A DNA stretch of 33,485 bases, from assembly GCA_016204385.1 (NCBI GenBank), contig JACQKW010000013.1:76507-109991 (forward strand), read 5' to 3'. This document shows, one piece after another, positions 9,283-27,213 of the stretch (position 1 is the stretch's first letter; every line of letters begins with the position of its first letter). The position numbers were made by a program, and so were the translations under genes. A model generated the notes under the pieces. It made no database searches and was not told the origin of the DNA. It saw nothing but the letters and a program-made list of their open reading frames with translations. The stretch is from Candidatus Liptonbacteria bacterium (GTDB lineage Bacteria; Patescibacteriota; Minisyncoccia; UBA6257; 2-01-FULL-56-20).

Positions 9283-10893
9283 TCACGCCTTCTTGAGCTT
9301 GATCGTGAACCTGCTCCCCTTCCCCTCTCCTTCCGACTGCGCGGCGATGGTCCCTCCGTGGGCTTCGATAATTTTCTTCGCAATGAAGAGGCCGAGGCCA
9401 GTGCCCAAAATTTTTGCCTTCACTTTTTCGTCGCGCACAAATTCCTCGAAAAGATGCGTAAGCAACTCGGGACTCACGCCCCGGCCGGAATCCACAACCG
9501 AGACCGTAAGCCACTCCCCTTTCTCCGAGAGGAATACCTTTACGTAGCCGCTTTCGGTATATTTGATGGCATTGTCCGTCATGTTTTGAATCACCTGCTT
9601 CAACTTCTGCCGATCGGCATTCACAAGAGCGTCCGAGCGCGATTCAAAAGTAAACTCAAGCTTTTTCTCGTTTGCAAGCGGCTCGAGGCCAGACACCACG
9701 TCTTTCACGAGATCGGCAAGCTTCACCTTCTCGAACACATACTCCATTCTTCCCTCCTCCACGCGCCGCATGTCAAGCAGGGTATTGATAAGCGCGATAA
9801 GGTCATCGCTCGAACGCCTTATCTTCACCAACGTCTCGCGAACTTTGTCGCTTATCGGCCCGTAAATGCCCTCAAGAAGAATTTGCGCGAACCCCTTGAT
9901 TGCCGCAAGCGGCGATTTCACCTGATGCGACGCAAGCGAAAGCAATTGCGTCTTCGCGCGGCTCAAGTCCTCGAGCTTCACGTTGGCTACCTTCAATTGC
10001 TCATTCAGCCGCGCCAGCTCCTCGCGCTGTTCAACTTCGCGAAGCACGCTTTTGATGAGGAGGATGCCGAAAGAGAGCACGAGAAGAAAAACGCCAAATC
10101 GAAACACTAACTCTGTAGGGCTTTTTGAAAGTAGAACCTCGAAAAGCGTGACGACGGCTAAAATAAATGCGATACCCTCGGTCGCAATGACTTTGACGTT
10201 CAGTAGATGATATCGCGTAATCGCATAAGCAGTAAGCGCTACGAACGGAAACGTGAAGACGGCACCGAGAGGAATAAATCTCAACTTGTGAAAAAATAGC
10301 GGTAAAACCAAGTTAAATGCTATAAGCAACGAAAAAGTCACTAAGATCCCAATGAGAATAAGCCGGAATTGAACCTTTTCGATTCCTTTTGCTTGAATAA
10401 ATTTTTTGAACAAAACAAAAATGCCACCAAAAACAAGGTAAGCTGCAACGAGAGCGAACAAAAACATTCCTGGACCCCTGTCTGGGTCACTAACCTCACC
10501 AACAGGAGCTATCCTAACTATCTTAGAAAAAACAAGTGGTGTAAGAGTGACGACTGATGTCAAAATTACAATCGGGATCAAAACAAATCTATAACCACGG
10601 AAGAAATTTATATTCTCGTTTGGAAAAATAAGTAGCAGTCTAAATAAAGTAAAAGCATACCAAACTGAAATAAACAAATGTAATCTAAGATTCCATAGGG
10701 CGGCTCCCGGAGTAGTAAATCGTGAGTTTAAGTAATTAGAAATACCCCAAACAATAGCCACCATTGCAAAGGCAAGAAAAGCTTTATTCGTAGCGCTACG
10801 CCGATTACTAAAAAAAACAACAAAGCCCAAAATGCCAACTCCAGCAATTGCAATCCCAACTGATAGTAAATCAAGATTGACAAGTGGAATCAT
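9283..10893 (-). CDS. membrane-bound sensor histidine kinase
   Basis: 536 residues. The N-terminal half (about 1-285) has roughly eight hydrophobic segments, resembling the 7-TM histidine-kinase N-terminal module. A short coiled coil (about 285-315) leads to the dimerisation helix with SHQVKSPLAAIKGF, the phospho-acceptor being H323. The ATPase domain shows DNAIKYT (N box), DSGRGVSP (G1) and GTGLGLFIAKKI (G2). The SHQ variant of the H-box is known in other bacteria. It overlaps the upstream nitroreductase gene by 4 nt (ATGA), so the two are translationally coupled. The membrane half is AT-rich and the kinase half GC-rich, as if assembled from two sources. No partner regulator is adjacent; two lone receivers lie at 26.8-27.6 kb. 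Confidence 0.92.
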   Translation of the reverse strand: MIPLVNLDLLSVGIAIAGVGILGFVVFFSNRRSATNKAFLAFAMVAIVWGISNYLNSRFTTPGAALWNLRLHLFISVWYAFTLFRLLLIFPNENINFFRGYRFVLIPIVILTSVVTLTPLVFSKIVRIAPVGEVSDPDRGPGMFLFALVAAYLVFGGIFVLFKKFIQAKGIEKVQFRLILIGILVTFSLLIAFNLVLPLFFHKLRFIPLGAVFTFPFVALTAYAITRYHLLNVKVIATEGIAFILAVVTLFEVLLSKSPTELVFRFGVFLLVLSFGILLIKSVLREVEQREELARLNEQLKVANVKLEDLSRAKTQLLSLASHQVKSPLAAIKGFAQILLEGIYGPISDKVRETLVKIRRSSDDLIALINTLLDMRRVEEGRMEYVFEKVKLADLVKDVVSGLEPLANEKKLEFTFESRSDALVNADRQKLKQVIQNMTDNAIKYTESGYVKVFLSEKGEWLTVSVVDSGRGVSPELLTHLFEEFVRDEKVKAKILGTGLGLFIAKKIIEAHGGTIAAQSEGEGKGSRFTIKLKKA

Positions 10894-11969
10894 GTTTTTT
10901 GTTGAAGATCAATAATCTCTGGGGGGAGTTTCAGAGACTGTGCTGTTGGTGGATCCGCATAGCCAAGTCGAAACATAATAGGGATTGTTTCTCTTTCTAA
11001 TTTAAAAATCTGGCGCACTTTCTCATAAGACTCTTTAATCAACTCAACTTGTCTTGAGGTAAACGGTTCAAAATTCCCCGCAAAAATTCTCTGCATGAAA
11101 AATAATATGCCTGTCATCGGTTGAAAACTTAACCCTAACTTCGTTGCAGTAAGCCAAACTCGTTCCATTATTCTTCCGGCCGTTACGAAGTCACTATTTT
11201 TATTCCCGCGAACCGCCACGATACCGACCGCCGCAGACGAGTCATACACCTTACCATTTTGTTTCCAAACTGCTTTTGAAGCTCCAACTCTATTTAAAAC
11301 TTTTAAGATCGGCCAATGCCTAAACAACCTAAACGTAGCCCGTGCAGGCGGCGGCAGTTCAAGCGTTTTAATATCAAACCCTAGTTTCTTTTGCTGATTC
11401 TCTTCGTCAGTCCAGTTGATATGACTGAATAAAAAATCATGTATTGATTTATTCTCAAGAGCAAGTCGTTCGTTCATGCTCCCCACAAGAGATAAAACTT
11501 TAATATCCTCTCTTTTCCCCGTAAGCAACACGTTTCCTCCGACAATGTCGCCAGCGGAATGTAAAAGGGCGTGACACACTTCCTGTGCAAGCGGCGTTTT
11601 TTTGTACGGCTTGCGATTCGTTGCACGCTTGATGATATATTGGTAGAGTGGTTCGTCCTTAGGTTTTGATTCACTGAAGACGACAGTCGCCACAATGTCA
11701 GCGTCATTCCTGTCTGGAAACACTTCTATATGCCCCGGATAGCCGAGGGCAGCGGCAGCGATTGAAATGTTCTCAAGAAGCGCTCCATGGGCAACATATG
11801 ACCCTCTCTGTCGAAAATTGTAAGGCGATTGATCTCGTCCCGGAATGTTAAAGACATAGATCGTGTGCGCACGGACCCTGAATTTCCACGGCTGGCAATT
11901 TTCACCCGACGGCGCTTGCGCGCCGGCTTCGAGGATTTTTTGGATCACTTCGCGAGGAACAATCGTCAT
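10890..11969 (-). CDS. FMN-dependent nitroreductase-family protein (Acg / Rv1355c C-terminal type)
   Basis: 359 residues. The N-terminal motif (ILEAGAQAPSGENCQPWKF) is the FMN-binding signature of nitroreductases. Residues about 55-75 (GSYVAHGALLENISIAAAALG) continue the fold, and the length equals the longer Acg-like subgroup. Members use FMN for redox chemistry or flavin storage; the substrate is unknown. From memory it most resembles the nitroreductase half of Rv1355c-type ThiF-nitroreductase fusions, and a ThiF protein resembling the other half is encoded at 15238-16464. The ATG at 11969 is chosen over the TTG three bases earlier because the -10 box lies 7 nt upstream. It overlaps the histidine kinase start by 4 nt. 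Confidence 0.82.
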   Translation of the reverse strand: MTIVPREVIQKILEAGAQAPSGENCQPWKFRVRAHTIYVFNIPGRDQSPYNFRQRGSYVAHGALLENISIAAAALGYPGHIEVFPDRNDADIVATVVFSESKPKDEPLYQYIIKRATNRKPYKKTPLAQEVCHALLHSAGDIVGGNVLLTGKREDIKVLSLVGSMNERLALENKSIHDFLFSHINWTDEENQQKKLGFDIKTLELPPPARATFRLFRHWPILKVLNRVGASKAVWKQNGKVYDSSAAVGIVAVRGNKNSDFVTAGRIMERVWLTATKLGLSFQPMTGILFFMQRIFAGNFEPFTSRQVELIKESYEKVRQIFKLERETIPIMFRLGYADPPTAQSLKLPPEIIDLQQKT

Positions 11970-11976
11970 CAATTAC

Positions 11977-11982
11977 ATTATA
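11977..11982 (-). promoter_or_regulatory. extended -10 box (leaderless) of the nitroreductase-kinase operon
   Basis: TGCTATAAT on the minus strand, 7 nt before the ATG at 11969. Confidence 0.65.
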
Positions 11983-12013
11983 GCAGACCAGAGACAATAA
12001 GAGGAAGAAAGAT

Positions 12014-12043
12014 TTGACAAATCCACATAAAGCAGGATATTTT
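12014..12043 (+). promoter_or_regulatory. sigma70-type promoter of the nucleotidyltransferase gene
   Basis: TTGACA (12014-12019), an 18-nt spacer and TATTTT (12038-12043). The leader then carries a strong AAGGAGGT site just before the ATG at 12083. Confidence 0.65.
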
Positions 12044-12082
12044 AATTAGCTATTCACAACTTAAAAAGGAAGGAGGTTTCGA

Positions 12083-12808
12083 ATGCAAGCGATTGTGCTC
12101 GCCGGCGGCAAAGGCGAACGTCTGTGGCCATTGACTGCCACGCTCCCCAAGGCAATGATACCGATCCTCGGCAAACCGATCCTCTCCTACCATCTCAACT
12201 GGCTCCGCGGGGAGGGGGTGACCGATGCGGTGGTGGCGTGTGGAGACAAGTCAGAAACGATCATCGAGTACTGCCGGGAGAATCCCGTTCGTAATCTCCG
12301 CATTCGGTTTCTGATAGAACACGAACTCTTGGGACGAGGCGGCGCGACGCGAAAAGCCGCAGAACTTCTCCCGCTCCCCAACGAACCCTCAATCGTCTCT
12401 CAAGGCGACACCGTAAGCGATATGCCGCTACGAGAGGCGATGGAATCGCATCGTTCCTCCCTGGCAATACTCACCTTGATGCTCGTGCCGTACCGATCGC
12501 GCTTCGGAGTTGTCGAGATCGGAAACGATAACTTCGTCACGCGCTTCCGTGAGAAACCGCGGCTACCATACTGGGCGAATGCAGGTACCTTCATCGCCTC
12601 GCCGGAATTTTTCGCGTATCTCCCAACGAAAGGAGACGAGGATTCCACTATTGAACTCCTTGCTCGCGAACACCGGGTGATAAGTTTTCGCACTTCCCAC
12701 TACTGGCGTTCGATCGATCTGCAAAAAGACATCAGCGAAGCCGAGGCAGACCTTCGTCTCCCTTCGCTTCCTCACGAAGAATCTTACGATCCATCACGCC
12801 CCGCCTAA
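12083..12808 (+). CDS. sugar-phosphate nucleotidyltransferase
   Basis: 241 residues of the NTP_transferase fold. The pyrophosphorylase signature MQAIVLAGGKGERLWPLT and LPKAMIPILGKPIL open the protein and bind the NTP. SQGDTVSD (about residue 110) is the position of the metal-binding aspartate, and NAGTFIASPEF (about 170) is typical of mannose-1-phosphate guanylyl- and glucose-1-phosphate thymidylyl-transferases. It would make a nucleotide sugar for surface polysaccharide; the sugar cannot be told from sequence. It lacks the left-handed beta-helix tail of GlmU. It has its own promoter, a strong Shine-Dalgarno site and a terminator overlapping its stop codon, so it is a self-contained unit. Confidence 0.88.
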   Translation: MQAIVLAGGKGERLWPLTATLPKAMIPILGKPILSYHLNWLRGEGVTDAVVACGDKSETIIEYCRENPVRNLRIRFLIEHELLGRGGATRKAAELLPLPNEPSIVSQGDTVSDMPLREAMESHRSSLAILTLMLVPYRSRFGVVEIGNDNFVTRFREKPRLPYWANAGTFIASPEFFAYLPTKGDEDSTIELLAREHRVISFRTSHYWRSIDLQKDISEAEADLRLPSLPHEESYDPSRPA

Positions 12809-12824
12809 CACGGGGCTTATTTTT
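12798..12824 (+). terminator. Rho-independent terminator of the nucleotidyltransferase gene
   Basis: GCCCCG (12798-12803) and CGGGGC (12811-12816) form a stem with the TAA stop codon in the loop, followed by a T-rich tail. Confidence 0.8.
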
Positions 12825-13371
12825 TCCCCACAAGCGCGAGGAGAAGCGCAAGCATACTGCCAGCTACTTTGATTTCATTCTTGAGCATTTTTTTTATTAC
12901 CGTGTCCCTTCTCACAAGAAAAACGTCGATCGCTTCGGTTTCGTCCATTTTCGCTTTGGCTACTTGCGTTACGCCTTTCGCAAAAAAGATGTAGAGCCCG
13001 TTTCCTTTTTCTTTAGTAGGGTTTGAATAAAAAAAACCAAGTTGCTTCCATGTTCCGGCACCGTATCCAGTTTCCTCCGTCAATTCCCGCTTCGCTGCAT
13101 GAAGCGGCGTTTCATACTTATCAATATATCCCGCGGGAACTTCGAGAAGAATCTTCCCGGCGCCATGCTTATATTGCCGAACCAGCGGGATCTTACCATC
13201 TTTCGTGAGCGCCACAACCAAGACAATATCGGGAAACACCCCAAGAAAATAATCGTTGATTATTTTGCCAGGTGCGATCTTTACTCTATCTCGCCGGACC
13301 CTGTACCAGCGGCGGTCAAAAACCGTTTTTGAGCCGAGCAATTTCCAGCTATGAATAGATTTTTTCTCCAT
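12817..13371 (-). CDS. NUDIX hydrolase, ADP-ribose pyrophosphatase-like
   Basis: 184 residues starting MEKKSIHSWKLLGSK. The strand VRRDRVKIAPG..IINDYF and the block VPAGYIDKYETPLHAAKREL followed by TEETGYGAG give a full Nudix box G-x5-E-x7-REL-x-EE-x-G preceded by LLEVPAG, as in ADP-ribose/ADP-sugar pyrophosphatases. It would clear or recycle nucleotide-linked sugars. The ATG at 13371 is 7 nt after a TAGACT box; the frame extends further upstream into the ROK gene without homology. The start is 10 nt after the ROK stop, so it may also be read from that gene's transcript. Confidence 0.9.
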   Translation of the reverse strand: MEKKSIHSWKLLGSKTVFDRRWYRVRRDRVKIAPGKIINDYFLGVFPDIVLVVALTKDGKIPLVRQYKHGAGKILLEVPAGYIDKYETPLHAAKRELTEETGYGAGTWKQLGFFYSNPTKEKGNGLYIFFAKGVTQVAKAKMDETEAIDVFLVRRDTVIKKMLKNEIKVAGSMLALLLALVGKK

Positions 13372-13378
13372 GGTGATT

Positions 13379-13384
13379 AGTCTA
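13379..13384 (-). promoter_or_regulatory. -10 box (leaderless) of the ADP-ribose-type NUDIX gene
   Basis: TAGACT on the minus strand, 7 nt before the ATG at 13371 and overlapping the end of the ROK gene. Confidence 0.5.
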
Positions 13385-14206
13385 GCGTTGCATCGCGCGC
13401 CATGCAAATCCACCTATTAACGCGGCATCGCCGCCAAGTTTTCCCATAGCGAGCTGCGGCGGAGGCGTGACCAACACCATCGTGCGAAGCTTCCTCCGCA
13501 GTGCCGGCAAAAACTTTTCGAATCTCGCCGCGACCGGCCCTACCAAGACGACAATCTCGGGAGCCCAGAAAACGGCGACGTTGGCGAGGGCTTGCGCGAA
13601 CCGACGCACCGATCTCTTAAAGTAATCTTCCGAAAGTGTTTCCGGTTCGCGTCCGGTCAAAATCTTGAAGGCGCTGCCCGATATGAAGCTCTCGAACGAT
13701 CCCGGGGCTTTCCCGGGGAACAACGACTTTGTGAGTTCTAAAATTTGATGGCCAGGCTCGAAATTGAATTTCCCTCGGATAATTTCTTTATTTTTTATTA
13801 AAGCTCCACCTGCCCCTGTTGCAATACTCACCATCGCGACGCATGTAAAACCTCTCCCTGCCCCATGCACCGCTTCGCCGAGTGCCGCCAGCTCGACATC
13901 GTTGAAGAGACTTGCTTTAATTTTATGCGCGCGAAAATCGCGGACAATATCCCGCTTGGCGTAATCTTTGAGATTCAGTGGGTGAAGGAGTTTTCCGCTC
14001 GATACGTCGAATGGCGAAGCAATACCTACAATAAGATGACTGATCTTTTCCCTCCTAAAAAACTCGACAATAGCTTGAATCTCGTTTCCATAAATTTTCA
14101 GTGTTGGAAATTGAAACTTTTTGAAATCCGTCGCACTCCTGAAATGCCAACCAATTCTTGTATTACTCGCTCCGATATCAACAACGGCATATTTTGTGGT
14201 GTTCAT
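13382..14206 (-). CDS. ROK-family protein (sugar kinase or regulator-like)
   Basis: 274 residues from the ATG at 14206. The phosphate-1 motif VVDIGASNTRIGW and the later SIATGAGGALI place it in the ROK / actin-like ATPase family, with EPGHQIL at the usual metal-site histidine. The CxCGxxGC zinc motif of classic ROK kinases is missing, replaced by a region rich in F and S before SFESFISGSAF. There is no N-terminal DNA-binding domain, so a small-molecule kinase is likelier than a repressor. The open frame runs 78 codons further upstream but has low-complexity AT-rich sequence with no homology. It is followed by the NUDIX gene 10 nt later. Confidence 0.8.
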   Translation of the reverse strand: MNTTKYAVVDIGASNTRIGWHFRSATDFKKFQFPTLKIYGNEIQAIVEFFRREKISHLIVGIASPFDVSSGKLLHPLNLKDYAKRDIVRDFRAHKIKASLFNDVELAALGEAVHGAGRGFTCVAMVSIATGAGGALIKNKEIIRGKFNFEPGHQILELTKSLFPGKAPGSFESFISGSAFKILTGREPETLSEDYFKRSVRRFAQALANVAVFWAPEIVVLVGPVAARFEKFLPALRRKLRTMVLVTPPPQLAMGKLGGDAALIGGFAWRAMQR

Positions 14207-14323
14207 AAAAGTTTTTCGAAAATAATGATTTGGCAATTCATTTAACTCTTTGTAAACGTCGAAATCCGCATAGTAAATAATACCAGAAAGACTTGATTTG
14301 AAAAAATCGCTAGAAAATGTAAA

Positions 14324-15046
14324 ATGGAATTCTGCGCAATGATTGAGCATGAGAAAACAAGAATCAGTAAAAAGGTAGATATGCTTTGCATCCTTGGACG
14401 TGGGATTGAAAAGGTAGAGGAACAATGGATACCCACACAATACATCGCCCGTCGTTCAAAAAACAATGAACATCTTGGTATCCGTGCCAAGGAAATATCT
14501 GCAAACGATGATGATCCTCGAATCTTTATCGCTGGCGGAGAATGCAACGTCTTCGCGGCATCTGTACTTTTTAAGAGGTGGCAAGAAAAAGGAAGGGTGC
14601 CTCAAATCGTAACATTCGCTGCAGGGCGTCCTCCATATCTCTCGAAAGAATCTGATTCCACTCTTAGCGAGGGGAAAATTTTGAAAGAGTATTTTCTTGC
14701 CAGAGTAGATCTGGGAGAAACAAAAATTGTAGAACAATCACACAATCAGAACAGTTGGGACGATATCGTCGAAACGCTAGAATTAGCGCGAGTAAAAAAA
14801 TTAGCGACGGTATGCGCCATTACAGTTCTTGTTCATATTCCTAGATGTCGAGAAATCCTTAGGCAGGCTCTCCAGAAAAACCCCCAGTTTCGCTCGGTCG
14901 AAATGTATTTTTGTGCGTCTGAATTTGTACTTCTTGACCACTCGCCCAATTTCGCTTTTTTGTGGGATGCTATGATTTCTAAGGCTTTCGTGCGAACTGC
15001 TGACTATGAAAGACGAGCAATTAGAACATTAAAAGAGAGCGCCTGA
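14324..15046 (+). CDS. YdcF / DUF218-like protein (tentative)
   Basis: 240 residues, soluble, AT-rich. LCILGRGIE near residue 21, then RIFIAGGECNVFAASVLFKRW, and later IVEQSHNQNSWDDIVETLELA match the order of the YdcF/SanA (DUF218) pattern: a glycine-rich first strand, a GG motif, and E-x-S-x-N-T preceding a helix. Several consensus residues differ, so the assignment is tentative. DUF218 proteins are linked to cell-envelope functions and bind nucleotides such as SAM in one case. The ATG at 14324 or the one at 14339 could be the start. A stretch to 15121 after it has no supportable gene. Confidence 0.6.
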   Translation: MEFCAMIEHEKTRISKKVDMLCILGRGIEKVEEQWIPTQYIARRSKNNEHLGIRAKEISANDDDPRIFIAGGECNVFAASVLFKRWQEKGRVPQIVTFAAGRPPYLSKESDSTLSEGKILKEYFLARVDLGETKIVEQSHNQNSWDDIVETLELARVKKLATVCAITVLVHIPRCREILRQALQKNPQFRSVEMYFCASEFVLLDHSPNFAFLWDAMISKAFVRTADYERRAIRTLKESA

Positions 15047-15121
15047 AACAGAATTCCTTCGCGGGGAATCACCACCTTTATTATATATAGACCGAAGAAG
15101 GCCGCCGTAACACAACGTTAG

Positions 15122-15238
15122 TTATTCCATCCCAATTAATTTTAAGTATTTTTTTCTTTCGTTTCCCCGCGATTTTGCCGACGAATCATAGTCCGGCTCG
15201 AAGATTGCATCGAGATTCACGTCTAGTTTTCCATACAC
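15122..15238 (-). CDS. 38-residue ORF coupled to the ThiF-like gene
   Basis: The GTG start shares its first base with the TAG stop of the ThiF-like gene (TAGTG), the usual geometry of translational coupling. The product begins VYGKLDVNLDAIFEPDYDSS and ends KYLKLIGME, acidic first and basic later, with no cysteine. I do not recognise it. Because it follows a cluster of adenylating enzymes, a peptide substrate or carrier is one idea, but no homologue or leader motif is evident. It may equally be a chance frame. Confidence 0.35.
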   Translation of the reverse strand: MYGKLDVNLDAIFEPDYDSSAKSRGNERKKYLKLIGME

Positions 15239-16464
15239 TATAACCCAAATATTTTTCGGAATGCGTGCGCGGACTTAAGCCTGCTCTTTTTTTGCGAACG
15301 CGAGTTATAATTCGGCACCAACTTCTCATCCAGGGAAATCAGCGCACGATTTGACTCAAGCGGCTGCTTGTTGAGAATCTTCCGGACGCAATACGCCACC
15401 GCCGAACCGTTTAAGACTGCCGCACCGCCGAGCTGGGGCCACGACACAATGGTTTTCCCTATTTGCGGCATTGATTCCTGCACCCGCCGCGTCACGGTCT
15501 CCGGACCGATATGCCTCACAATGAGCTTCCCGATACCCATTTTGTCCAAATCAAGCAATTTTTTATATGCAACAGGTCCCATGCGGCCGTGAAAGAATTT
15601 TGTCCTTGGGTTGAGGTCATATCTTTCAATATCCACGACGCCGTTATCGCCGTTATCAGCAGCCATCACGATTGGCACTCTATACCGCCGCGCATATTCA
15701 CGGATGAGATATTTCATTGCGATGTTATCCAGCTCATCTACCATAATGTTCAGTTTCGGCGGACCTGCAAAAAATCTTTTGATGTTTTTTTCTGTCAATC
15801 CATCCGAAAACAACTCAATCCTTGCGTATGGATTAATCTCGTACATCTGGCGCGCGGTCATCTCGGCCTTGCCTAATCCCAAATTTTGAACACCCGCACG
15901 GACTCGGTTGGTATTCGACAGCGCCAGTCGGTCAAAGTCGGCAAGGCGCATGTGTTTTCCCCCTCCCTGTAGTGCAATCGTCAAAGCAACGCTGTTACCC
16001 ACGCTCAATCCTCCAATTCCGATTACTGCGTTGTAGAACTTCTCTTGCTCGGCGGCATTAATCAAATTTCTGTTGCGAGCCGTTCTAACCGATTGAAAAT
16101 CATGGTCTTCCAAAATGTGCACCGCCGAAGAAAGCCAGGGGTAGTAGACCCACCGGCCATACTCCCACAATGGGCGGTTTCTCGCTAGGTTACTGAAAAA
16201 CTCTGCAAATTTATCAGTAAAAACAGGATTAAAAACCAACTCCGGATTCTTGACCGCAAAAAGCTCGTGGAGCTGCTCCTTGTAATCGTCTATAACGTGT
16301 TGAATTTTGTCTGTCGAGAGCAACTTCTCAAAAACCCTCCTCTCTTTTGATCTCCTAAGATTAAAAATAACCGGCTTTGAAGTATCGGCATTCGCTGCCT
16401 TTTTTTTAAGAGATGAATGCAATATTTTTTCCGAACGACCAATCATGCCTATTTCTTTACCCAC
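15238..16464 (-). CDS. E1-like ThiF-family adenylating enzyme (resembles N-terminal half of Rv1355c-type proteins)
   Basis: 408 residues. An N-terminal region of about 145 residues (WEYGRWVYYPWLSSAVHIL, VRTARNRN) precedes a Rossmann domain with GIGGLSVGNSVAL, LADFDRLALSNTNRVRAG and LGKAEMTARQM, the nucleotide-binding and arginine motifs of ThiF/MoeB/E1 enzymes. The N-terminal block and LSVGNS form are, from memory, those of Rv1355c-family proteins, where a nitroreductase is fused at the C-terminus; here it is absent. No CxxC zinc pairs and only one cysteine (AYCVRK) are present, so a thioester mechanism is doubtful. It should adenylate a carboxylate of a peptide or small molecule. It overlaps the end of the PaaK-like gene by 16 nt. 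Confidence 0.82.
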   Translation of the reverse strand: MGKEIGMIGRSEKILHSSLKKKAANADTSKPVIFNLRRSKERRVFEKLLSTDKIQHVIDDYKEQLHELFAVKNPELVFNPVFTDKFAEFFSNLARNRPLWEYGRWVYYPWLSSAVHILEDHDFQSVRTARNRNLINAAEQEKFYNAVIGIGGLSVGNSVALTIALQGGGKHMRLADFDRLALSNTNRVRAGVQNLGLGKAEMTARQMYEINPYARIELFSDGLTEKNIKRFFAGPPKLNIMVDELDNIAMKYLIREYARRYRVPIVMAADNGDNGVVDIERYDLNPRTKFFHGRMGPVAYKKLLDLDKMGIGKLIVRHIGPETVTRRVQESMPQIGKTIVSWPQLGGAAVLNGSAVAYCVRKILNKQPLESNRALISLDEKLVPNYNSRSQKKSRLKSAHAFRKIFGL

Positions 16465-17963
16465 TTTTGCTTGATGCCGCGGCTGAAATGCAGCGGGTGC
16501 TCATAGGGCCAAAAAACGATTTTTGGCACCACTCCTTTTATCTTTCCGCTGTGGATCGCATGATATTCTGAGTTTCGCCGAAGCAGCGTGGCGACCACGA
16601 GATCCCTCGCGTTCTGCTCCAACTTCTTTAGGTCACGCGTTTTGACTTTCGGTTTGAGTTCAATGTTGATCTCCAAGTACTCAGTATAACTCCTGTCGCT
16701 TTTGATGCGAAGCGTGAACTTAGTGGTCACAAATTTCTCCAAAGAGTCGTGTTGTAATGCCTCGCGGATTTCCTCGGGATAGATATTCGCGCCCGATAGC
16801 ACAACAGAGAAATCGCTTCGCTCATAGACGTAGACAAACGGTAGTTTATAGATAACACGAGCCACCCCGACCTTCTCCCCTTCTTTCTCTAGTTTCACCC
16901 CATGCCTCTCCAGCATCTCCTTCACATCTGCAAAATTGAACGCGCCGCCGTGATCGCCAATCGAGTAGCGCACGAGCGGCAATGCGTTGTTGCCCGTAAG
17001 GATAATCTCCCCCTCCACTGCCTCAAAAGAGATGAAAAGCGGGTTGTACTGTGCAAGCGTAGGCGTCTTGTCGATACGACCGAAGACATCATTAAAAAAT
17101 TTGACATTGCGCATCGCGAGCCGGCGAATAAGAATTGAAATGGGCGTCTCCCACGCCATCGCGCCTATGTCCGCGGTGCCGTAGATGTTTAACGTATCAA
17201 GATAGAGGTTTTTGACCCCAGCTTTCTTTGTGATATGTTCACGAAACTTCTCCGTATAGGCCTCCGCCGCGGAGAACAAGCGTACGTTAAGCTTCCTAAA
17301 GTTGATCCCTTTCGCCGTCGCTTCATCAAGAATATCCTTCAAAAAAGGGGGGTATGCGACAATGATGGTCTCTTTATACTGTGGCGCGAGCCGCGTGAGG
17401 ACGTTCATTATCTCTGGCTTGTTAATCCCCGGCGTAACAATTGAAGCGCGGTAATTGGCACGCCTCGTTGCCATTTCAAAAGCTTGATATGTAATGAGCC
17501 CACCAATCCAAATCCCCATGCCAAAGCAGATCATTATGAGAACAGGACCTCCGCTCTCGTAGGAACTGTTCCGCAGAAACATCTCTGCCATCACGGAATA
17601 CTCCCAGTCCAATTGTTCACCGCGAGGAAAGTAGAAAGGGTCGCCGGTCGAACCAGAGGTTGAAGTCCACACAAGCGGCTTTTTCAAAGTGCCGTCCCAA
17701 CAAAGTTTTTCAAGCGGATACTTGCGCAAATAATTTTTCTTGCTGACCGGCGGAACAAATTGGAAGTCTTTGAATGTTTTAATTTTCGAAGGGTTGATCT
17801 TATGTTTCCGCAAAAAATCCTTGTACGCCGGCACGCGGCGCGCCGCCGCATGGAAAAGCCGGAGTGGCCGCCGTTCGCGTTCGCGCGACCAAAAACCGTC
17901 CTTCTTTGTTTTGATAAAACGAAGGATTTGTTCTGCCGAATGGATCGTGTCCAGAGAGTTCAC
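16449..17963 (-). CDS. PaaK / CapK-like adenylate-forming enzyme
   Basis: 504 residues. The phosphate-binding loop WTSTSGSTGDPF is that of the ANL superfamily, closest to phenylacetate-CoA ligase (PaaK) and CapK-type proteins. NIYGTADIGAMAWE and LVRYSIGDHGG fit the A5 and A7 positions, and VVLSGANIYPEEIREAL marks the C-terminal domain. It would activate an organic acid as acyl-AMP and pass it to a thiol or other acceptor; the acid is unknown. It overlaps the ThiF-like gene downstream and follows the dehydrogenase gene by 35 nt, so the three form an operon. Joint presence of two adenylating enzymes and an amino-acid dehydrogenase points to a modified amino or keto acid product. Confidence 0.87.
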   Translation of the reverse strand: MNSLDTIHSAEQILRFIKTKKDGFWSRERERRPLRLFHAAARRVPAYKDFLRKHKINPSKIKTFKDFQFVPPVSKKNYLRKYPLEKLCWDGTLKKPLVWTSTSGSTGDPFYFPRGEQLDWEYSVMAEMFLRNSSYESGGPVLIMICFGMGIWIGGLITYQAFEMATRRANYRASIVTPGINKPEIMNVLTRLAPQYKETIIVAYPPFLKDILDEATAKGINFRKLNVRLFSAAEAYTEKFREHITKKAGVKNLYLDTLNIYGTADIGAMAWETPISILIRRLAMRNVKFFNDVFGRIDKTPTLAQYNPLFISFEAVEGEIILTGNNALPLVRYSIGDHGGAFNFADVKEMLERHGVKLEKEGEKVGVARVIYKLPFVYVYERSDFSVVLSGANIYPEEIREALQHDSLEKFVTTKFTLRIKSDRSYTEYLEINIELKPKVKTRDLKKLEQNARDLVVATLLRRNSEYHAIHSGKIKGVVPKIVFWPYEHPLHFSRGIKQKWVKK

Positions 17964-17998
17964 TGCGCCCTAAGTATAGCAAAAATCATGCAGAGGCA

Positions 17999-19069
17999 CT
18001 ACTTTTTTCTACGCTTTCCGTTCTTAAAAATCCGCTCGGCAAGGCGATCCGCAACGTCGCTTGTTGGCTTATTAAGTTTCTCCGAAAGCATAATAATTTT
18101 CTTGGCGGTTTTTCGTATATCTTTAACCTTCTTGCGTACGCGCCGGCTGCTGTAACCGCGCTTATCAAGCTCGCTTACCACATTGATAAGACCGCCTGCG
18201 TTTGCCAAATAATCCGGAATATAGAGAATCCCCCATCCATGGAGACGCTCGCCGTCTTTCTCAGAGCTCAGTTGGTTGTTCGCACCGCCGCAGATAACCT
18301 GGCACCGAAGCTGGGGAATTGTTTTCTTGTTAAAATCCCCTCCGAGCGCGCACGGGGCATAGACATCAACGCGCTGGCGATGGATTTCCTTTGCTTCAAC
18401 GATTTTAATCCTCGGAAACCTCCTCTTTGCCGACCGAACGCGGTCCGGGTCGATATCGGCGCCAATGAGCGTCCCGCCGCGCCGGTAGAGAAGCTCACAA
18501 AGCGCGCCCCCGACTTTGCCGAGTCCCTTAACCGCGAAGGTGCGGCCGGTAATATCGGCATTGCCGAAAACGACCTCAAGACCTGCCTGCAGTGCAAAAA
18601 ACACTCCGAGCGCCGCCCACGGGCTCGGATCGCCGGCAAACTTTTCGCGCCCGATAATAAAGTGCGACTGGCGCGCAAGTACGCTGATATCATCCGGGGT
18701 TATTCCAACGTCTTCGCCCGTGTAGAAACTTCCCTCAAGCAAGTTGACTCGCTTTGCGTATGCAGCAAGAATTTTTCGCCGCCGCGGGTGGTGAGAGTTC
18801 GCAATAATCACACCCTTGCCGCCGCCATAGGGAACCCGCGCCAAGGCGCACTTATAAGTCATCGCCCGCGAAAGACGGAGTACGTCGCGGAAAGCTTCTT
18901 CCTCCGAGTCATAAGCCCAGTAGCGCGTGCCGCCGGTGGCCGGGCCTAAATTTGTGTTGTGAATCGCAATAAAGCTCTTAAGGCCGCTTTTCCTGTCAGC
19001 GGTAAAAGCAACCAGTTCGTGGTTGTCGAACTCCGGAAGCCTTGATGCATCCAAAAGAATCTTCTTCAT
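17999..19069 (-). CDS. Glu/Leu/Phe/Val dehydrogenase (leucine dehydrogenase-like)
   Basis: 356 residues. The substrate domain shows GPATGGTRYW, the lysine region MTYKCALARVPYGGGKGVI and TGEDVGITPDDI. The NAD-binding domain has VKGLGKVGGALCELL, and the coenzyme end CGGANNQL and PDYLANAGGLINV. This is the short leucine/valine/phenylalanine dehydrogenase type, which interconverts an amino acid and its 2-oxo acid with NAD. It is first in a minus-strand operon with the PaaK-like and ThiF-like genes, which may consume its product. A TGCTATACT promoter lies 39 nt upstream, back to back with the promoter of an ABC exporter. Confidence 0.9.
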   Translation of the reverse strand: MKKILLDASRLPEFDNHELVAFTADRKSGLKSFIAIHNTNLGPATGGTRYWAYDSEEEAFRDVLRLSRAMTYKCALARVPYGGGKGVIIANSHHPRRRKILAAYAKRVNLLEGSFYTGEDVGITPDDISVLARQSHFIIGREKFAGDPSPWAALGVFFALQAGLEVVFGNADITGRTFAVKGLGKVGGALCELLYRRGGTLIGADIDPDRVRSAKRRFPRIKIVEAKEIHRQRVDVYAPCALGGDFNKKTIPQLRCQVICGGANNQLSSEKDGERLHGWGILYIPDYLANAGGLINVVSELDKRGYSSRRVRKKVKDIRKTAKKIIMLSEKLNKPTSDVADRLAERIFKNGKRRKK

Positions 19070-19108
19070 TCAGATAGTGTCCGCATGGCGTATTCAACCA
19101 TCACCTTT

Positions 19109-19134
19109 AGTATAGCAGATTAAAGAAACGTCAA
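19109..19134 (-). promoter_or_regulatory. promoter of the dehydrogenase operon
   Basis: Extended -10 TGCTATACT (-10 at 19109-19114) with TTGACG at 19129-19134. The 14-nt spacer is short, but the extended -10 can compensate. The -35 lies 4 nt from the -35 of the divergent exporter gene. Confidence 0.55.
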
Positions 19135-19138
19135 TAAT

Positions 19139-19167
19139 TTGAGGCCCGGATAGGAACCTGATATAAT
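19139..19167 (+). promoter_or_regulatory. promoter of the ABC exporter gene
   Basis: TTGAGG (19139-19144), a 17-nt spacer and a perfect TATAAT (19162-19167), 11 nt before the ATG at 19179. Confidence 0.7.
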
Positions 19168-19178
19168 TTGCCCTTGCC

Positions 19179-20999
19179 ATGACTCCCGACGAAAAGAAAA
19201 ACAGGTTCTCGCTTGTTGCAATCCGGGAACTCATCCGAAATTCAAGGCGCGTCTTTCTTATCATCTGGAAGGAGCGGCGCGGGCTTGTTCTTGCGGTTCT
19301 CTCTGTCACGTTCCTCATCTCCGCGGCGCCGTTCCTCGTGTCCGGTTCACGCGGTTTTTTAATCAATGAACTCGTGCAAAGCGCTCAAGGATCAGTCTCG
19401 TCCACGCTTCTTCTTTCAATCGCTCTTTTCGCCGGCGCGCTCGTCATTACGCCGCTCTTCCGAATCTTTGAAGGTTATATGGGAAAGCTTTTCTCGTTCT
19501 TTTTGGACGAGAAATTCGAGATGCTCATCATTAAGAAAAAAGGAGATATTGACGTTTCCGTCCACGAAGATCCGCGCCACAACGACCTTTTTAATCGGGT
19601 CCAGGAAAACGGCGTGTGGCGGATTACGAACTTTACAGACCGGCAATTTTTCATCGTCCAAAACGCCGCCGAAACGGTGATTGCGGCGGTCATACTTCTT
19701 TTCGCCAACTGGTGGGTGTTTCTCGTGATTATGATCGCCGCGATCCCGGAACTCGTGACCGAGGTCCGCTACGGCCGGCAGGTGTGGTCAATTCACACGG
19801 GGAGAGCGGAGATACGCCGCAGGTATCACGACCTTCGCTGGCGATTCGACCGTCTCCCCTCTCTCGTAGAGTTAAAGCTCTCGCAAAATTTGCGGCACTT
19901 CACTTCCATCATCCGCGATCTCTTCAAAAGTTTTCAGGACGAAGAGAAAAAGGCAGAGCGAAAGAGGCTTGCGTGGGAATCGGCGACATTTTTGTTTTTG
20001 CAAGGGGCGATCATTTTTGCGAGCGTGTGGTTCATCTTCGAGGTTATGCGCGGGAAACTCCAAATCGGGACGTTCACCTTTTTTCTGGCTTCCGTCCTCG
20101 ATTTTCGCCAATCTCTTTCGGCGCTCTTCAGAAACCTTGGCCGGCAGCATCAGGATAATCTTTTTGTAACCGACGTATTCAAACTTCTCGATCTCTCGCC
20201 CGCGCTCGAGAAGCCAACCTCGGGAATTTCGCTTGATCCGCACCGCACGCCGGAGATCGTTTTTGAGAGGGTACACTTTCGGTACCCCGGCACAAAGGAA
20301 TACGTGCTCAAGAATTTCTCGCTCCGCATCGCGCCCGGAGAAAAACTTGCGCTCGTGGGCTCAAACGGCGCCGGCAAAACCACGCTCGTGAAACTCCTTT
20401 GTCGATTCTACGATCCGGACAAAGGAAGGATCTTAATCAACGGCAACGACATCAAAACGGTTGACCTCGAAAGCTGGTATCGCGAGCTCGGCGTGCTCTT
20501 TCAAGATTACGACAATTACCATTTCCTCGTGAGGGAATCCATCGCAATCGGGCGAAGCGGCGCAATGAGCTCGCTTGAAAAGGTAAAAGGCGCCGCAAAA
20601 GCGAGCGAGGCAGACACCTTTATCGAGGAATGGGAAAAAGCATATGAACAAATGCTCGGGAAGCAATTTACCGGCGGTATTGAGCCCTCCATCGGGCAAT
20701 GGCAGAAACTCGCGCTCGCGCGAACCTTTTACCGCGATCCCCAGGTGCTCATTCTCGACGAGCCAACTTCCTCCATTGACGCGGAAGCGGAAGCAAAAAT
20801 CTTCGATCGCTTGGAACAGCTCCCGAAAGATCGCACCGTGATCCTTATCTCGCACCGCTTTTCAACCGTGCGCCACGCGAACCGCATTTGCGTGATTAAA
20901 GACGGCCGCCTTGCAGAACTCGGCACGCATGCGGCACTTCTTAAGCGCGGGGGTACATACGCGCGCCTCTTCAAACTTCAGGCGCGGGGATACCGGTAG
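19179..20999 (+). CDS. ABC exporter, fused permease and ATPase
   Basis: 606 residues in one half-transporter. The membrane domain (about 35-330) has five to six helices (LVLAVLSVTFLISAAPFLV, TVIAAVILLFANWWVFLVIM, ATFLFLQGAIIFASVWFIF). The ATPase domain shows Walker A GSNGAGKT, Q-loop VLFQDYDNY, signature PSIGQWQKLALAR, Walker B VLILDEPTSSID and switch LISHRFSTV. The signature is PSIGQ in place of LSGGQ, a variant known among bacterial exporters. It should act as a homodimer exporting a lipid, peptide or metabolite. No N-terminal C39 peptidase domain is present. The divergent promoter suggests joint control with the dehydrogenase / PaaK / ThiF operon, whose product it may export. Confidence 0.92.
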   Translation: MTPDEKKNRFSLVAIRELIRNSRRVFLIIWKERRGLVLAVLSVTFLISAAPFLVSGSRGFLINELVQSAQGSVSSTLLLSIALFAGALVITPLFRIFEGYMGKLFSFFLDEKFEMLIIKKKGDIDVSVHEDPRHNDLFNRVQENGVWRITNFTDRQFFIVQNAAETVIAAVILLFANWWVFLVIMIAAIPELVTEVRYGRQVWSIHTGRAEIRRRYHDLRWRFDRLPSLVELKLSQNLRHFTSIIRDLFKSFQDEEKKAERKRLAWESATFLFLQGAIIFASVWFIFEVMRGKLQIGTFTFFLASVLDFRQSLSALFRNLGRQHQDNLFVTDVFKLLDLSPALEKPTSGISLDPHRTPEIVFERVHFRYPGTKEYVLKNFSLRIAPGEKLALVGSNGAGKTTLVKLLCRFYDPDKGRILINGNDIKTVDLESWYRELGVLFQDYDNYHFLVRESIAIGRSGAMSSLEKVKGAAKASEADTFIEEWEKAYEQMLGKQFTGGIEPSIGQWQKLALARTFYRDPQVLILDEPTSSIDAEAEAKIFDRLEQLPKDRTVILISHRFSTVRHANRICVIKDGRLAELGTHAALLKRGGTYARLFKLQARGYR

Positions 21000-21510: not shown

Positions 21511-21516
21511 ATTATA
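21511..21516 (-). promoter_or_regulatory. -10 box (leaderless) of the small membrane protein gene
   Basis: TATAAT on the minus strand, 6 nt before the ATG at 21504, overlapping the stop codon of the upstream gene. Confidence 0.6.
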
Positions 21517-24500
21517 CCAAAGTCAATTTTATTTGAGTAATGATCTGTATCAGCGCTTTGGCATCTTGGGTTGATATCCTTTGTTTTGTCTCATCCGCAT
21601 CATCATCTCCCTCTTCGGTATTGTTGAGATCGTCACCCTTTAATCGCTTCTGATTCCTCTTTATTTCCTTCTCAAGACGTTTGATTACTTTGTCGAACCG
21701 CATCGAAGCCTTTTCCGCTTTTCCGTCCCGTAGTTCTATACCAGCTTTTTCCGTATCTTTCATAAGTTTCTCAATAAATTTATGGTTGGCATCGAGAGAG
21801 TTTAAGACACGCACAAGTATCTCAAGTGAAATTTCTGCGTTTGCTCCTTCCATTGGATTCAACGCAAAATCAGTAATTCCGTCACCCTCGACATCTATTT
21901 CGAGTGCACTTGCCGTATCCGGCGTCTGAAGAGACATCACCGCCTTTGTCGTCGAAGCGACGGGGATATTGATATATGAAATAGTTTCGACTTCTTGATC
22001 ATCAAGAACTTCCTGTATCTCAAGCGTGAACGTTCCCAGAGCTTCTCCGTGAAGCTCCAGTAAATATCTGTCTTGTGTGTCTAAACTCGCATACTTTCCC
22101 TCGCCAAATAAATCAATAGAGCTATTTGGAATTTGTTCTTCGACAAGCTGTAAGTCAGATTTAGGATCCGGATTTTCAATCAAGCCGGTATGGTTTCCGA
22201 GGCTGTCGTAAATATCAATCAAAACTGGCGAGTGGACGCCGATACGCAAATTGTGCGCACCACCTGGTTTCGTAACGGTAATGTGTTGGGGTAGATTATT
22301 GAGGTCGACGCTGTTCTGTACAATATTTTGTATAAGTTCCTGAAGAGATTCTACTTCCATAATATCGCCGTGCGCCCTGTTTCTCTTGAATTGACCGATC
22401 TCATTGTGCTTTTGCAAGTTAACATAAAACACCTGTTCCTCCATCCCCGTCGCGCTCGGGATCACCACCGTGCCGTCGCCATCAGAGGTAAACCGCGGTC
22501 CATGATCAAGATTTTCTAAGCTGTGAAATAGACAGATGTCGCATAGATCGTATTCGATGCCGCGAACGGTATCCTTTCCCCAACCGGCAATTTGCACCAC
22601 CTCAATGCTTGGCGGCGGCACCCATGCATCAAGCAGATCGTGGACGACACTCGACGACACAAGCAAGCTTGGTTTCAAGACGTTTGGAACACGGAAGCTA
22701 TTCGGCGGCGGTTCCGTGCGACTCCCAGCATCTCCTGCAAGGAACATGCGAAAATCGCCAGCGGTGGTAATAGTTGTCCCCGCGCGCGCCGCGAGCTCCG
22801 GAATCCTGCGCACCTCATCGTCAAATTCAACGACCGGGTCGAGCACGCGATTGAAGTATTCCTCTGACGGCAGAAGGTTGTAGGCGCTCGCCATGTTCTC
22901 GCCAAGTTCACGCGCGGTTGACTTGCTCAAGAAAATGCCGAGCTTCTTTGGGATTTCCTGATCGTCCCCGTGGAGAAGCCCTGCGATCGCCGCGGGCGTG
23001 CCGAGCTGGGGCGAGGCAACCATAATCATGCGGTCAATGAGACGATCTTCCCCTAGGTCGCGCAATCTGTTCACGAGCACCTTCGCGAGCAGGCCGCCGT
23101 TGCTGTGCGTCACGAGCGTCACCTTGCCCGTAGCAGAAGAAGATGCGAGCGCCTCAATTTCAGCAATAAGGTTTTGTGTTCCGCTTTGAAGCTGAATACC
23201 ATTGTTTACGATATTTTCAAGCGGCATCCTCCAGTCATAGGGGAACGGTTTCCACGCGTTGATCACGCCATCGCTCACCATCGTGTCCATGGATGTAATG
23301 AAGTTTTTGTAAATATTGAATCCCACGAGGGGCTTTGGGCGGACTATGTTCGATTCATCAATGATGTCGCGCGCGTAGATAGCGGGGTCGAGGGGTTCCC
23401 CCTCGTCGTCAAGGAAAAGTTTTTGCACATCACCATTTCGGTTCGGTTCCCACAGCTGATTTTCAAAGATTTGCTGCTTATACAGCCGGCTCCCCATAAG
23501 TCCGGGCAGGAACGCCACGTTCGAAAATCTTTTCTTGGTTTCAAAGAAATACTTGGTCGAGTCATTGAGCGTGTACTGTCGCGCGAGAACGGCAACGGTG
23601 ACGTAATCGTCGGGCAGAAAGCCGCGCCGCATCACAGATTCAACGTCTCGGCGCTCGAGCAAACACAACAAGATAAACCGGTTGCAGCTGGTGAGAAGCC
23701 CGTTGAATGGAGTCCAAAGGTGAAATTGCCGTACCGGGAAATCGTAATGCCGGCCCCGCTCGACCTGGAAGTGGTGGGTCAGGACATCCGCATGAAAGAG
23801 ATTATTGTTTCCTCCCTCCTCGAAAATTGCGGAAATGTCCTTGTGAGGATCTGGCTCAAAGCGCGAAACAGAAGGAAGATCGGAGATGGCGCCATTCAAA
23901 CCTACGTGCAAAAAAATCTCTTTGTTTGGCCCCACCCAGTCGAAACCAAAGGTTAAATGTTCATTCGCGTCAAATCCCCATTTCACGTTCGTGTAGGGAA
24001 TGACGGGGAGGGGGTTCGCGGGCACCTGATAGAAATATTGTTCAAGATCGCTCATGCCAAGGAACGACGGCCTGGGAAAGGGGCGGGGAAGACTGGGGCT
24101 TACCATGAGCTGCACCGTGATAAAATCGACCGCGGCAAAGGAAAGTTTTTCCGGCGGCAACCCGGGGTTGATGTATGCCTTAATCAATCTTGGCAGCGCG
24201 CTGTTGAGATCGGGGTTATTGGGAAAACAAGGCCCCGTAAACCCGGAGGCAAAGGCACGTATCCCAAATTGGCCATAGTTGTCGTCGCCAAACGCGCTCC
24301 GCGGGTTGTAGAAATCACCGTTCAGCAATTCAGGAACGATTGCCCCCGTCGTCGTTGCGACCGGATTATACCGATTAAACCAGACAAGAATAGTGTCTAA
24401 AGAGCAAAGATCGGCAGGATTCGGGATACCCACCCAATGAAAGGAGAGGTAATCCCCGCCCTCGTCCTGGCCGAAGAAGACATTTTGGATATAGGGGTTT

Positions 24501-24595
24501 GCGGCGTGGGCGGAGGGTACGCGCGGCGAGAAAAAGAGAATGGCGACAATTCCCAAAACAAGGCATAGTGCCGACCGAGTGTTCAGAAATCCCAT
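21512..24595 (-). CDS. large secreted LCAT-like alpha/beta hydrolase
   Basis: 1027 residues with a signal peptide (LCLVLGIVAILFFSPRVPSAHA, cleavage likely after AHA). About 330 residues of beta-rich sequence with no recognised family come first. The hydrolase domain follows: FLPGLMGSRLY (oxyanion region, about 361), the nucleophile box VTHSNGGLL (Ser near 498), FTSDGDGTVVIPSA (Asp) and AHGDIMEV (His), the order seen in lecithin:cholesterol acyltransferases. It may cleave or transfer acyl chains on lipids outside the cell. The last 130 residues are charged helices, AT-rich relative to the rest, with no LPxTG or other anchor. The frame extends 10 codons upstream to a TTG overlapping the -10; the ATG at 24595 begins the signal peptide. 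Confidence 0.85.
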   Translation of the reverse strand: MGFLNTRSALCLVLGIVAILFFSPRVPSAHAANPYIQNVFFGQDEGGDYLSFHWVGIPNPADLCSLDTILVWFNRYNPVATTTGAIVPELLNGDFYNPRSAFGDDNYGQFGIRAFASGFTGPCFPNNPDLNSALPRLIKAYINPGLPPEKLSFAAVDFITVQLMVSPSLPRPFPRPSFLGMSDLEQYFYQVPANPLPVIPYTNVKWGFDANEHLTFGFDWVGPNKEIFLHVGLNGAISDLPSVSRFEPDPHKDISAIFEEGGNNNLFHADVLTHHFQVERGRHYDFPVRQFHLWTPFNGLLTSCNRFILLCLLERRDVESVMRRGFLPDDYVTVAVLARQYTLNDSTKYFFETKKRFSNVAFLPGLMGSRLYKQQIFENQLWEPNRNGDVQKLFLDDEGEPLDPAIYARDIIDESNIVRPKPLVGFNIYKNFITSMDTMVSDGVINAWKPFPYDWRMPLENIVNNGIQLQSGTQNLIAEIEALASSSATGKVTLVTHSNGGLLAKVLVNRLRDLGEDRLIDRMIMVASPQLGTPAAIAGLLHGDDQEIPKKLGIFLSKSTARELGENMASAYNLLPSEEYFNRVLDPVVEFDDEVRRIPELAARAGTTITTAGDFRMFLAGDAGSRTEPPPNSFRVPNVLKPSLLVSSSVVHDLLDAWVPPPSIEVVQIAGWGKDTVRGIEYDLCDICLFHSLENLDHGPRFTSDGDGTVVIPSATGMEEQVFYVNLQKHNEIGQFKRNRAHGDIMEVESLQELIQNIVQNSVDLNNLPQHITVTKPGGAHNLRIGVHSPVLIDIYDSLGNHTGLIENPDPKSDLQLVEEQIPNSSIDLFGEGKYASLDTQDRYLLELHGEALGTFTLEIQEVLDDQEVETISYINIPVASTTKAVMSLQTPDTASALEIDVEGDGITDFALNPMEGANAEISLEILVRVLNSLDANHKFIEKLMKDTEKAGIELRDGKAEKASMRFDKVIKRLEKEIKRNQKRLKGDDLNNTEEGDDDADETKQRISTQDAKALIQIITQIKLTLV

Positions 24596-24624
24596 ATGCG
24601 TACTCAAAGAGTAGCAAGGACGCA

Positions 24625-24630
24625 ATTATA
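24625..24630 (-). promoter_or_regulatory. -10 box of the LCAT-like gene
   Basis: TATAAT on the minus strand, 29 nt before the ATG at 24595. Confidence 0.45.
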
Positions 24631-26787: not shown

Positions 26788-27213
26788 TTAGGGCCGTTTC
26801 TCCGCGGGTGTTGCGGGCCCCTTGCGCGCAAGCAACGCGTTCACTTTCTCAACGACGTGATTCAAATCGTCGGTTTTCTCAAGAAAATCGTCCATTCCAA
26901 GCTCCTTCGCAATGGTCGCCTTGTCTCCCGCGACCGCGGGCCACGGTTCCTTGAGGTTTGTGAGGAATGCAACCTTGAGCATTTTTGTCTTCGGGTTTTG
27001 CTTTATCTCGAGCGCAACGTCCGTGCCGGTCTCGTTCGGCATATGAATGTCCATGAGTACGAGGTCGGGAAGGAGTTCTCCCGCTTTCGCGACCGCTTCT
27101 TTGCCATTCCTCGCTACCGCCACTTCAAAACCCGCCGCCTTGAGTTTTGCCGAGAATATCTCCTGAAAATTTTTTTCGTCGTCAACGACAAGAATGAGCG
27201 GTTTTTCCCTCAT
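26788..27213 (-). CDS. stand-alone response regulator receiver domain protein
   Basis: 141 residues, a single CheY-like receiver. It has the acidic pocket VVDDEKNF, the phospho-acceptor D55 in LVLMDIHMP, threonine in FLTNL and the conserved lysine in FLEKTDD. The Pro/Ala/Lys-rich tail (GPATPAEKRP) has no output domain. It overlaps the upstream regulator by 4 nt (ATGA). No histidine kinase is adjacent; the sensor kinase at 9.3-10.9 kb is a candidate partner only by inference. It is likely a phospho-relay or protein-interaction switch. Confidence 0.92.
   Translation of the reverse strand: MREKPLILVVDDEKNFQEIFSAKLKAAGFEVAVARNGKEAVAKAGELLPDLVLMDIHMPNETGTDVALEIKQNPKTKMLKVAFLTNLKEPWPAVAGDKATIAKELGMDDFLEKTDDLNHVVEKVNALLARKGPATPAEKRP

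Follow-up and report, generated by a model that had tools for sequence, protein, structure and literature searches.

A PaaK-ThiF operon with a seven-transmembrane histidine kinase in Patescibacteria: a predicted variant of oxazolone-type biosynthesis

Gene content and conservation of the operon

The window analyzed here is a 33,485-nucleotide stretch of a Candidatus Liptonbacteria bacterium genome (GCA_016204385.1, contig JACQKW010000013.1; 605 kb, 80% complete), whose close relatives with organism names were all Patescibacteria, and it carries a minus-strand operon joining amino-acid and acid-activating enzymes to a sensor kinase. A Glu/Leu/Phe/Val-type (ELFV-type) amino-acid dehydrogenase resembling leucine and tryptophan dehydrogenases (LeuDH/TrpDH-like; positions 17999-19069; PF02812/PF00208), a PaaK-like acid-activating ligase of a divergent clade (16449-17963; profile and structure-database matches), and a ThiF-type cyclase (15238-16464) were present as described in the initial annotation, in agreement with Pfam and NCBIfam matches and coordinates. 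The reading frames of ThiF and PaaK share 16 nt. The initial annotation ended the locus at ThiF; however, the operon is larger and also includes a flavin-dependent oxidase (FDO) of the nitroreductase superfamily (10890-11972), a proposed desaturase lying 3.3 kb downstream of ThiF behind a 3.2-kb insertion, and, as the next gene, a histidine kinase with an N-terminal seven-transmembrane (7TM) sensor (HisKA_7TM; 9283-10893; PF16927, PF00512, PF02518). Three things had been overlooked: the FDO, whose presence defines the chemistry; the 7TM kinase, the commonest partner of ThiF; and the published oxazolone pathways. From its genes, the locus is predicted to encode a variant form of oxazolone-type biosynthesis linked to a receptor-like kinase.

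At an E-value of 0.001, searches with the family to which ThiF belongs gave matches in 25 of 188 class genomes and in 81 of 379 phylum genomes, with about 46 of the 81 phylum matches being clear matches to the ThiF half (E about 1e-45 or better). Neighborhoods were counted in 63 non-redundant related loci, in which several absences fall at contig ends; PaaK was near ThiF in 49 loci, FDO in 50, the 7TM kinase in 52, and LeuDH in 16. The kinase was on the same strand as ThiF in all of its loci (52/63). Adjoining core genes were separated by a median of 5 nt, with 164 of 189 gaps at 60 nt or less, and the contiguous order LeuDH-PaaK-ThiF-FDO-kinase was typified by locus L024. Of the 63 loci, 21 had a response regulator no more than 8 kb from ThiF; in the window, two single-domain response regulators (26788-27608, minus strand; response-regulator profile matches), possible partners of the kinase, were found 16 kb from it. 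A weakly methyltransferase-like protein, c15, sits between the biosynthetic genes and the kinase in L023 (12131-13039), L029 (10571-11500), L039 (7544-8470), and L079 (10148-11059), and is a possible tailoring enzyme.

The initial annotation had proposed synthesis and export of a modified amino or keto acid, or of a short peptide, by a gene set with no described pathway, and had held that the proposal would fall if these genes co-occurred in no other genome. The gene-neighborhood comparison found them together elsewhere, so that objection fails, and the co-occurrence of LeuDH, PaaK, and ThiF in many Patescibacteria upheld the biosynthetic part of the proposal; the short peptide and the export partner did not stand. 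No earlier account of this locus type was found in the open-access literature, subscription journals and preprints being outside that scope; the ThiF-FDO pair was already known (PMC10404671, PMC12856293).

ThiF and FDO as two halves of one oxazolone enzyme family

The window ThiF matched positions 4-349 of NCBIfam NF005901 ("Rv1355c family") at 340 bits, below the whole-protein cut-off with half of the protein present, and the FDO matched positions 373-714 of the same model at 213 bits and PRK14851 at 248 bits. The two proteins correspond to the first and second halves of the Rv1355c/TrzS family, which form a single protein in actinobacteria and in L028, and are fused also in L058. Rv1355c is TrzS, which performs ATP-dependent cyclization and O2-dependent desaturation of N-acyl tryptophan to yield N-acyl tryptazolone, with TrzA as its N-acyltransferase partner; D217 of the Mycobacterium smegmatis TrzS is required for cyclization, which is abolished in the D217A variant (PMC12856293). 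Similar pathways, TyzACB and OxzAB, use tyrosine or phenylalanine, TyzC and TyzB being the FDO and ThiF homologues that make tyrazolones (PMC10404671).

The ThiF adenylation residues R187, K199, and D246 were invariant in 56 of 56 relatives. D246 aligned with D202/D200 of actinobacterial Rv1355c proteins and was mapped, via other actinobacterial homologues, as the counterpart of TrzS D217. In FDO, S22, N25, Q27, P28, W29, R116, and R120, which are active-site-type and FMN-site-type residues, were invariant in 46 of 46 sequences; TrzS R540 and Q651 were mapped only via other actinobacterial homologues, and the likely R540 equivalent, FDO R169, was not invariant. Through these experimentally characterized homologues, the predicted cyclization and desaturation steps were moderately supported.

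TrzAS (Rv1356c-Rv1355c; Mycobacterium and Rhodococcus) shares the NF005901 ThiF and FDO and the same predicted cyclization and desaturation. In the present locus, however, the halves are separate, PaaK and an amino-acid enzyme are found with no TrzA-type GNAT protein, and a 7TM histidine kinase is linked, whereas TrzAS has cyclic-di-GMP genes nearby. In TyzACB (M. tuberculosis) and OxzAB (Pseudoalteromonas), ThiF and FDO, separate in Tyz and fused in Oxz, act on an N-acyl amino acid whose acyl group comes from acyl-CoA, whereas most Patescibacteria studied here had PaaK and no fatty-acid ketosynthase. The window holds a TrzS/Rv1355c-type ThiF cyclase and a nitroreductase-superfamily FDO, and a GNAT-type N-acyltransferase (OxzA/TyzA/TrzA, FeeM fold) was not found in it. 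Because this amino-acid N-acyltransferase is missing, the locus works like, but is not classed as, a standard acyl-oxazolone pathway member. On Streptomyces plasmids, a ThiF of the same family sits next to either a GNAT protein or a beta-ketoacyl-ACP (acyl carrier protein) synthase 3 (L048:6941-8739, L051:6170-9084), possibly representing other acylation variants.

PaaK, amino-acid enzymes, and the missing acyltransferase

The ligase scored 54.5 bits against TIGR02155, for which the equivalog cut-off is 646.3, so it is PaaK-like and not a member of that family; it also matched the FlxY profile (42 bits) and structure 2y4o (E 2e-7). Its glycine-rich loop (S103/G104/G107) and K498 were conserved in 46 of 46 sequences. 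The dehydrogenase matched the ScyB-like model NF035922 at 327 bits, below its cut-off, and the LeuDH structure 3vpx (E 2e-84). Among the related loci, 28 PaaK operons held LeuDH (16), an aromatic ammonia-lyase (HAL, 10), or an aminotransferase (AT, 2), and never two of these (28/28). This mutual exclusivity, along with the fusion of LeuDH and PaaK in one protein of L062 (5322-7862), suggested that PaaK activates an acid supplied by the amino-acid enzyme. An aromatic ammonia-lyase paired with a PaaK-type protein is known from flexirubin biosynthesis (FlxA, a tyrosine ammonia-lyase, and FlxY) and recurred in 10 related operons; unlike in flexirubin loci, no polyene genes were seen here, ThiF, FDO, and the kinase were present instead, and scores were below the family cut-offs.

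The missing ACYLTRANSFERASE, a FeeM/GNAT N-acyltransferase, was not found in most genomes with the operon: PF21926 had no match in 26 of 27, and PF13444 likewise in 26 of 27. Neither PF21926 (FeeM) nor PF13444 was found in the host genome, which is 80% complete and in which distant forms may escape these profiles. The fatty-acid ketosynthase PF00109 was not found in 24 of 27 operon genomes, and the remaining three gave weak partial matches. A protein of about 350 amino acids, c12, occurred in 4 of 188 class genomes, exactly those of four operons that carry it in place of PaaK, and never together with PaaK; these four operons also had no LeuDH, ammonia-lyase, or aminotransferase (Fisher p 0.04). 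Because of this gene replacement and the exclusivity of PaaK and c12, PaaK appears to take the place of the known GNAT acyltransferase as the N-acylating activity.

In structure comparison with a low-confidence model of c12 (pLDDT 54), the 37 best rows were all N-acetyltransferases (Z 4.0-5.9), a hint that c12 may be a GNAT-type acyltransferase. Sequence searches of Pfam, NCBIfam, and PDB linked c12 to no acyltransferase, Foldseek returned nothing significant, and profile comparison with presumed TrzA neighbors gave a single 22-residue match (E 0.07). The phylum-wide search detected c12 in none of 379 genomes, a sample that excluded the four carriers.

The 7TM histidine kinase

Kinase residues H323, N441, and D468 were conserved in 38 of 38 sequences. 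In single-sequence searches of 10 operon genomes, only the operon kinase matched over its full length, and other kinases matched only over the kinase domain (10/10). With the sensor profile, the top 17 scores all belonged to operon kinases, 8 of them from genomes outside profile building. A sensor exclusive to the oxazolone-type operon was ruled out by the same profile search, which found relatives in 110 of 188 class genomes, and full monophyly of the operon kinases was unsupported: in the kinase tree, 19 of 20 non-operon kinases formed one group, and the operon label needed two changes. The sensor model (pLDDT 82.6) was a seven-helix bundle arranged like class C G-protein-coupled receptors (Z 16.2, 3.5 A, 219 residues); the modeled likeness is one of shape, not homology, as helical bundles easily score high.

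A synthase linked to a multi-transmembrane kinase, as in CqsA/CqsS-like systems, was found in 52 of 63 loci, and because of this gene order the 7TM kinase is, by analogy, the putative receptor of the operon product. The likeness to CqsA/CqsS and LqsA/LqsS lies in arrangement only, a signal-making enzyme gene beside a multi-transmembrane histidine kinase; here the enzyme chemistry is different, and the kinase belongs to the HisKA_7TM family, with a putative function.

Kinases of this family outside the operon had been presumed ordinary, and the result was unexpected. Sixty non-operon HisKA_7TM kinases (L132-L191) were taken by sensor score, as a ranked and not a random sample, and upstream genes were assigned to families by way of one or several representatives of each cluster. 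A same-strand gene lay directly upstream in 58 of 60, within 60 nt in 53. These genes mostly encoded small-molecule enzymes: acyl-ACP-reductase-like proteins (13), UbiA prenyltransferases (6, plus 1 downstream), PlsC/methyltransferase/FeeM proteins (5), methyltransferases (5), HAD proteins (4), terpene-synthase-like proteins (3, weak), thioester reductases (3), BioF/CqsA-like proteins (2), ketoacyl-ACP synthase (KAS) III (2), and a LuxI-like protein (1), with others unassigned. Upstream of 10 control kinases with no 7TM sensor were other kinases or GAF proteins, DNA polymerase I, a secretion ATPase, FIST, a repeat-containing surface-type protein, a weak peptidase match, one protein with no family, and one methyltransferase. 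This pattern looks like a general pairing of synthases with 7TM kinases in Patescibacteria.

Three further observations were made at these loci. In a Patescibacteria genome, a LuxI-type autoinducer synthase homologue (L134:5006-5629; PF00765, E 3.5e-17) precedes a 7TM kinase by 21 nt. A protein of 550-600 amino acids with no Pfam or NCBIfam match (L135:2636-4288 and four homologues) was the upstream partner of five 7TM kinases. The aspartyl-tRNA synthetase gene aspS was often just downstream of the 7TM kinase, in L028, L031, L034-L037, L039, and L040, and in 18 of 60 non-operon loci; its presence in both oxazolone-type and other cassettes would fit an exchange of synthases at a single chromosomal position.

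ThiF exchange, the insertion, and neighboring genes

A 38-codon open reading frame (15122-15238, minus strand) overlaps ThiF by 1 nt, as had been reported along with a short-peptide product. The overlap was correct, but the product resembled the ThiF C-termini of six loci (L079, L057, L081, L058, L025, and L084; tblastn), best in L079 (54% over 37 amino acids, E 8e-7). This homology ruled out a modified peptide, and the precursor peptide of a ribosomally synthesized and post-translationally modified peptide (RiPP) cluster was not found, the frame being a ThiF remnant. The window ThiF shares 63% identity with its L065 and L023 counterparts but 42% with that of L025, while PaaK and the kinase have their closest relatives in L025 (58% each). 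Most simply, recombination would have brought a different ThiF into an L025-like operon, with the tail of the old gene probably remaining as the 38-codon vestige.

Between this scar and FDO stands the insertion (11973-15121), recognized by its Pfam content and absent from the ThiF-FDO interval of contiguous relatives, for example L024, L025, and L032. It holds, by Pfam, an NTP transferase (12083-12808, plus strand), a NUDIX protein (12817-13413, minus), a ROK kinase (13382-14440, minus), and a DUF218-like protein (14324-15046, plus).

On the other side of the operon, a divergent ABC exporter (19179-20999, opposite to the minus-strand genes; open-reading-frame map) had been read as an operon partner expressed from back-to-back promoters. 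The gene is present, but no exporter lay next to any other operon among the related loci. The -35-like boxes are indeed 4 nt apart (19129-19134 and 19139-19144), and the exporter-side promoter fits sigma-70 (TTGAGG-17-TATAAT); the dehydrogenase-side promoter did not hold, having a 14-nt spacer and being uncalled by the promoter scan. Further along the window, a 1037-amino-acid protein with an LCAT/lipase-like domain is encoded on the minus strand (21512-24625) and is probably secreted.

Proposed pathway and alternatives

We slightly favor the reading in which the locus directs both synthesis and sensing of a small signal derived from an amino acid, an acyl-oxazolone or open-chain relative with its cognate receptor. 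LeuDH, or in relatives an aromatic ammonia-lyase or aminotransferase, would convert a branched or aromatic amino acid to a keto or enoic acid. PaaK would adenylate this acid or a different, scavenged one; transfer of the acyl group to the amine of an amino acid would then replace the acyl-CoA-dependent GNAT step. ThiF would then adenylate the carboxylate of the N-acyl amino acid and cyclize it to a 5(4H)-oxazolone, which FDO would desaturate using O2. The 7TM kinase would bind the product and signal to a single-domain response regulator. Homology to characterized enzymes suggests the cyclization and desaturation, gene replacement and exclusivity the acid supply and acylation, and gene order the sensing. 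The kinase stays with PaaK in eight loci that lack FDO, which we count in favor of the signal reading.

Several points weigh against it. In the host organism, the pathway is a prediction from gene content and gene order. Sensor-profile relatives are so widespread in the class (110 of 188 genomes) that presence alone is unspecific, and the weakest operon sensor scored 195 bits where the best ThiF-negative one reached 186. Kinase distances correlated modestly with those of the enzymes (0.20-0.50), a result confounded by descent, and the response regulators carry no output domain. PaaK is a putative amide-forming enzyme, and acyl-CoA may be its sole product; 21 PaaK operons have neither LeuDH nor ammonia-lyase, and the direction and substrate assigned to these enzymes are putative. 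FDO also requires O2, the supply of which is uncertain.

A rather unlikely alternative is that the product is an acyl-oxazolone or dehydro-amino-acid lipid for the envelope, stress protection, or anti-host use, with the kinase sensing membrane or lipid state to regulate the operon instead of serving as the product's receptor. In its favor, a signaling role is unproven for the oxazolones of Mycobacterium and Proteobacteria, which have been tied to stress (PMC12856293), the 7TM sensors form a broad family, and non-operon kinases beside UbiA, PlsC, and acyl-ACP reductase could fit lipid homeostasis. However, the kinase-linked chemistries range from prenyl through LuxI-like to oxazolone, a spread that resembles an exchange of ligands more than a single lipid state, and some kinase partners resemble known autoinducer synthases.

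It is improbable that PaaK and ThiF act in a route with no oxazolone end, for instance one to an open-chain dehydro-N-acyl amino acid, to a lactone, or to an acyl adenylate handed to a different acceptor. The eight loci keeping PaaK, ThiF, and the kinase with no FDO would suit such a route, but ThiF is highly conserved with the TrzS half whose D217A variant loses cyclization, and absence of oxazolones from extracts would be weak evidence because they are readily hydrolyzed in acid (PMC12856293). A modified short peptide or amino acid exported by the ABC transporter is very improbable. The divergent position of the exporter gene, 110 nt from LeuDH, speaks for it, but no exporter recurs beside the related operons, and the short-peptide part appears largely refuted by the identity of the tiny frame as a ThiF remnant.

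Tentatively, and at somewhat less than even chances, Patescibacteria may hold modular signal systems that pair a single type of 7TM kinase with exchangeable small-molecule synthases. The oxazolone type would be one of roughly ten chemistries, based on amino acids and not on fatty acids, and would provide the first case of an oxazolone signal that has its own receptor. Assembly by PaaK with no GNAT protein would, if true, be a new way to N-acyl amino acids. If the signal reading is true, Patescibacteria, which are ultra-small, mostly uncultured, and poor in biosynthetic genes, would have their own chemical signaling, perhaps aimed at kin or at host cells. For the oxazolones, a class of bacterial lipids discovered only recently, the link to a receptor kinase across much of the phylum would give a directly testable function.

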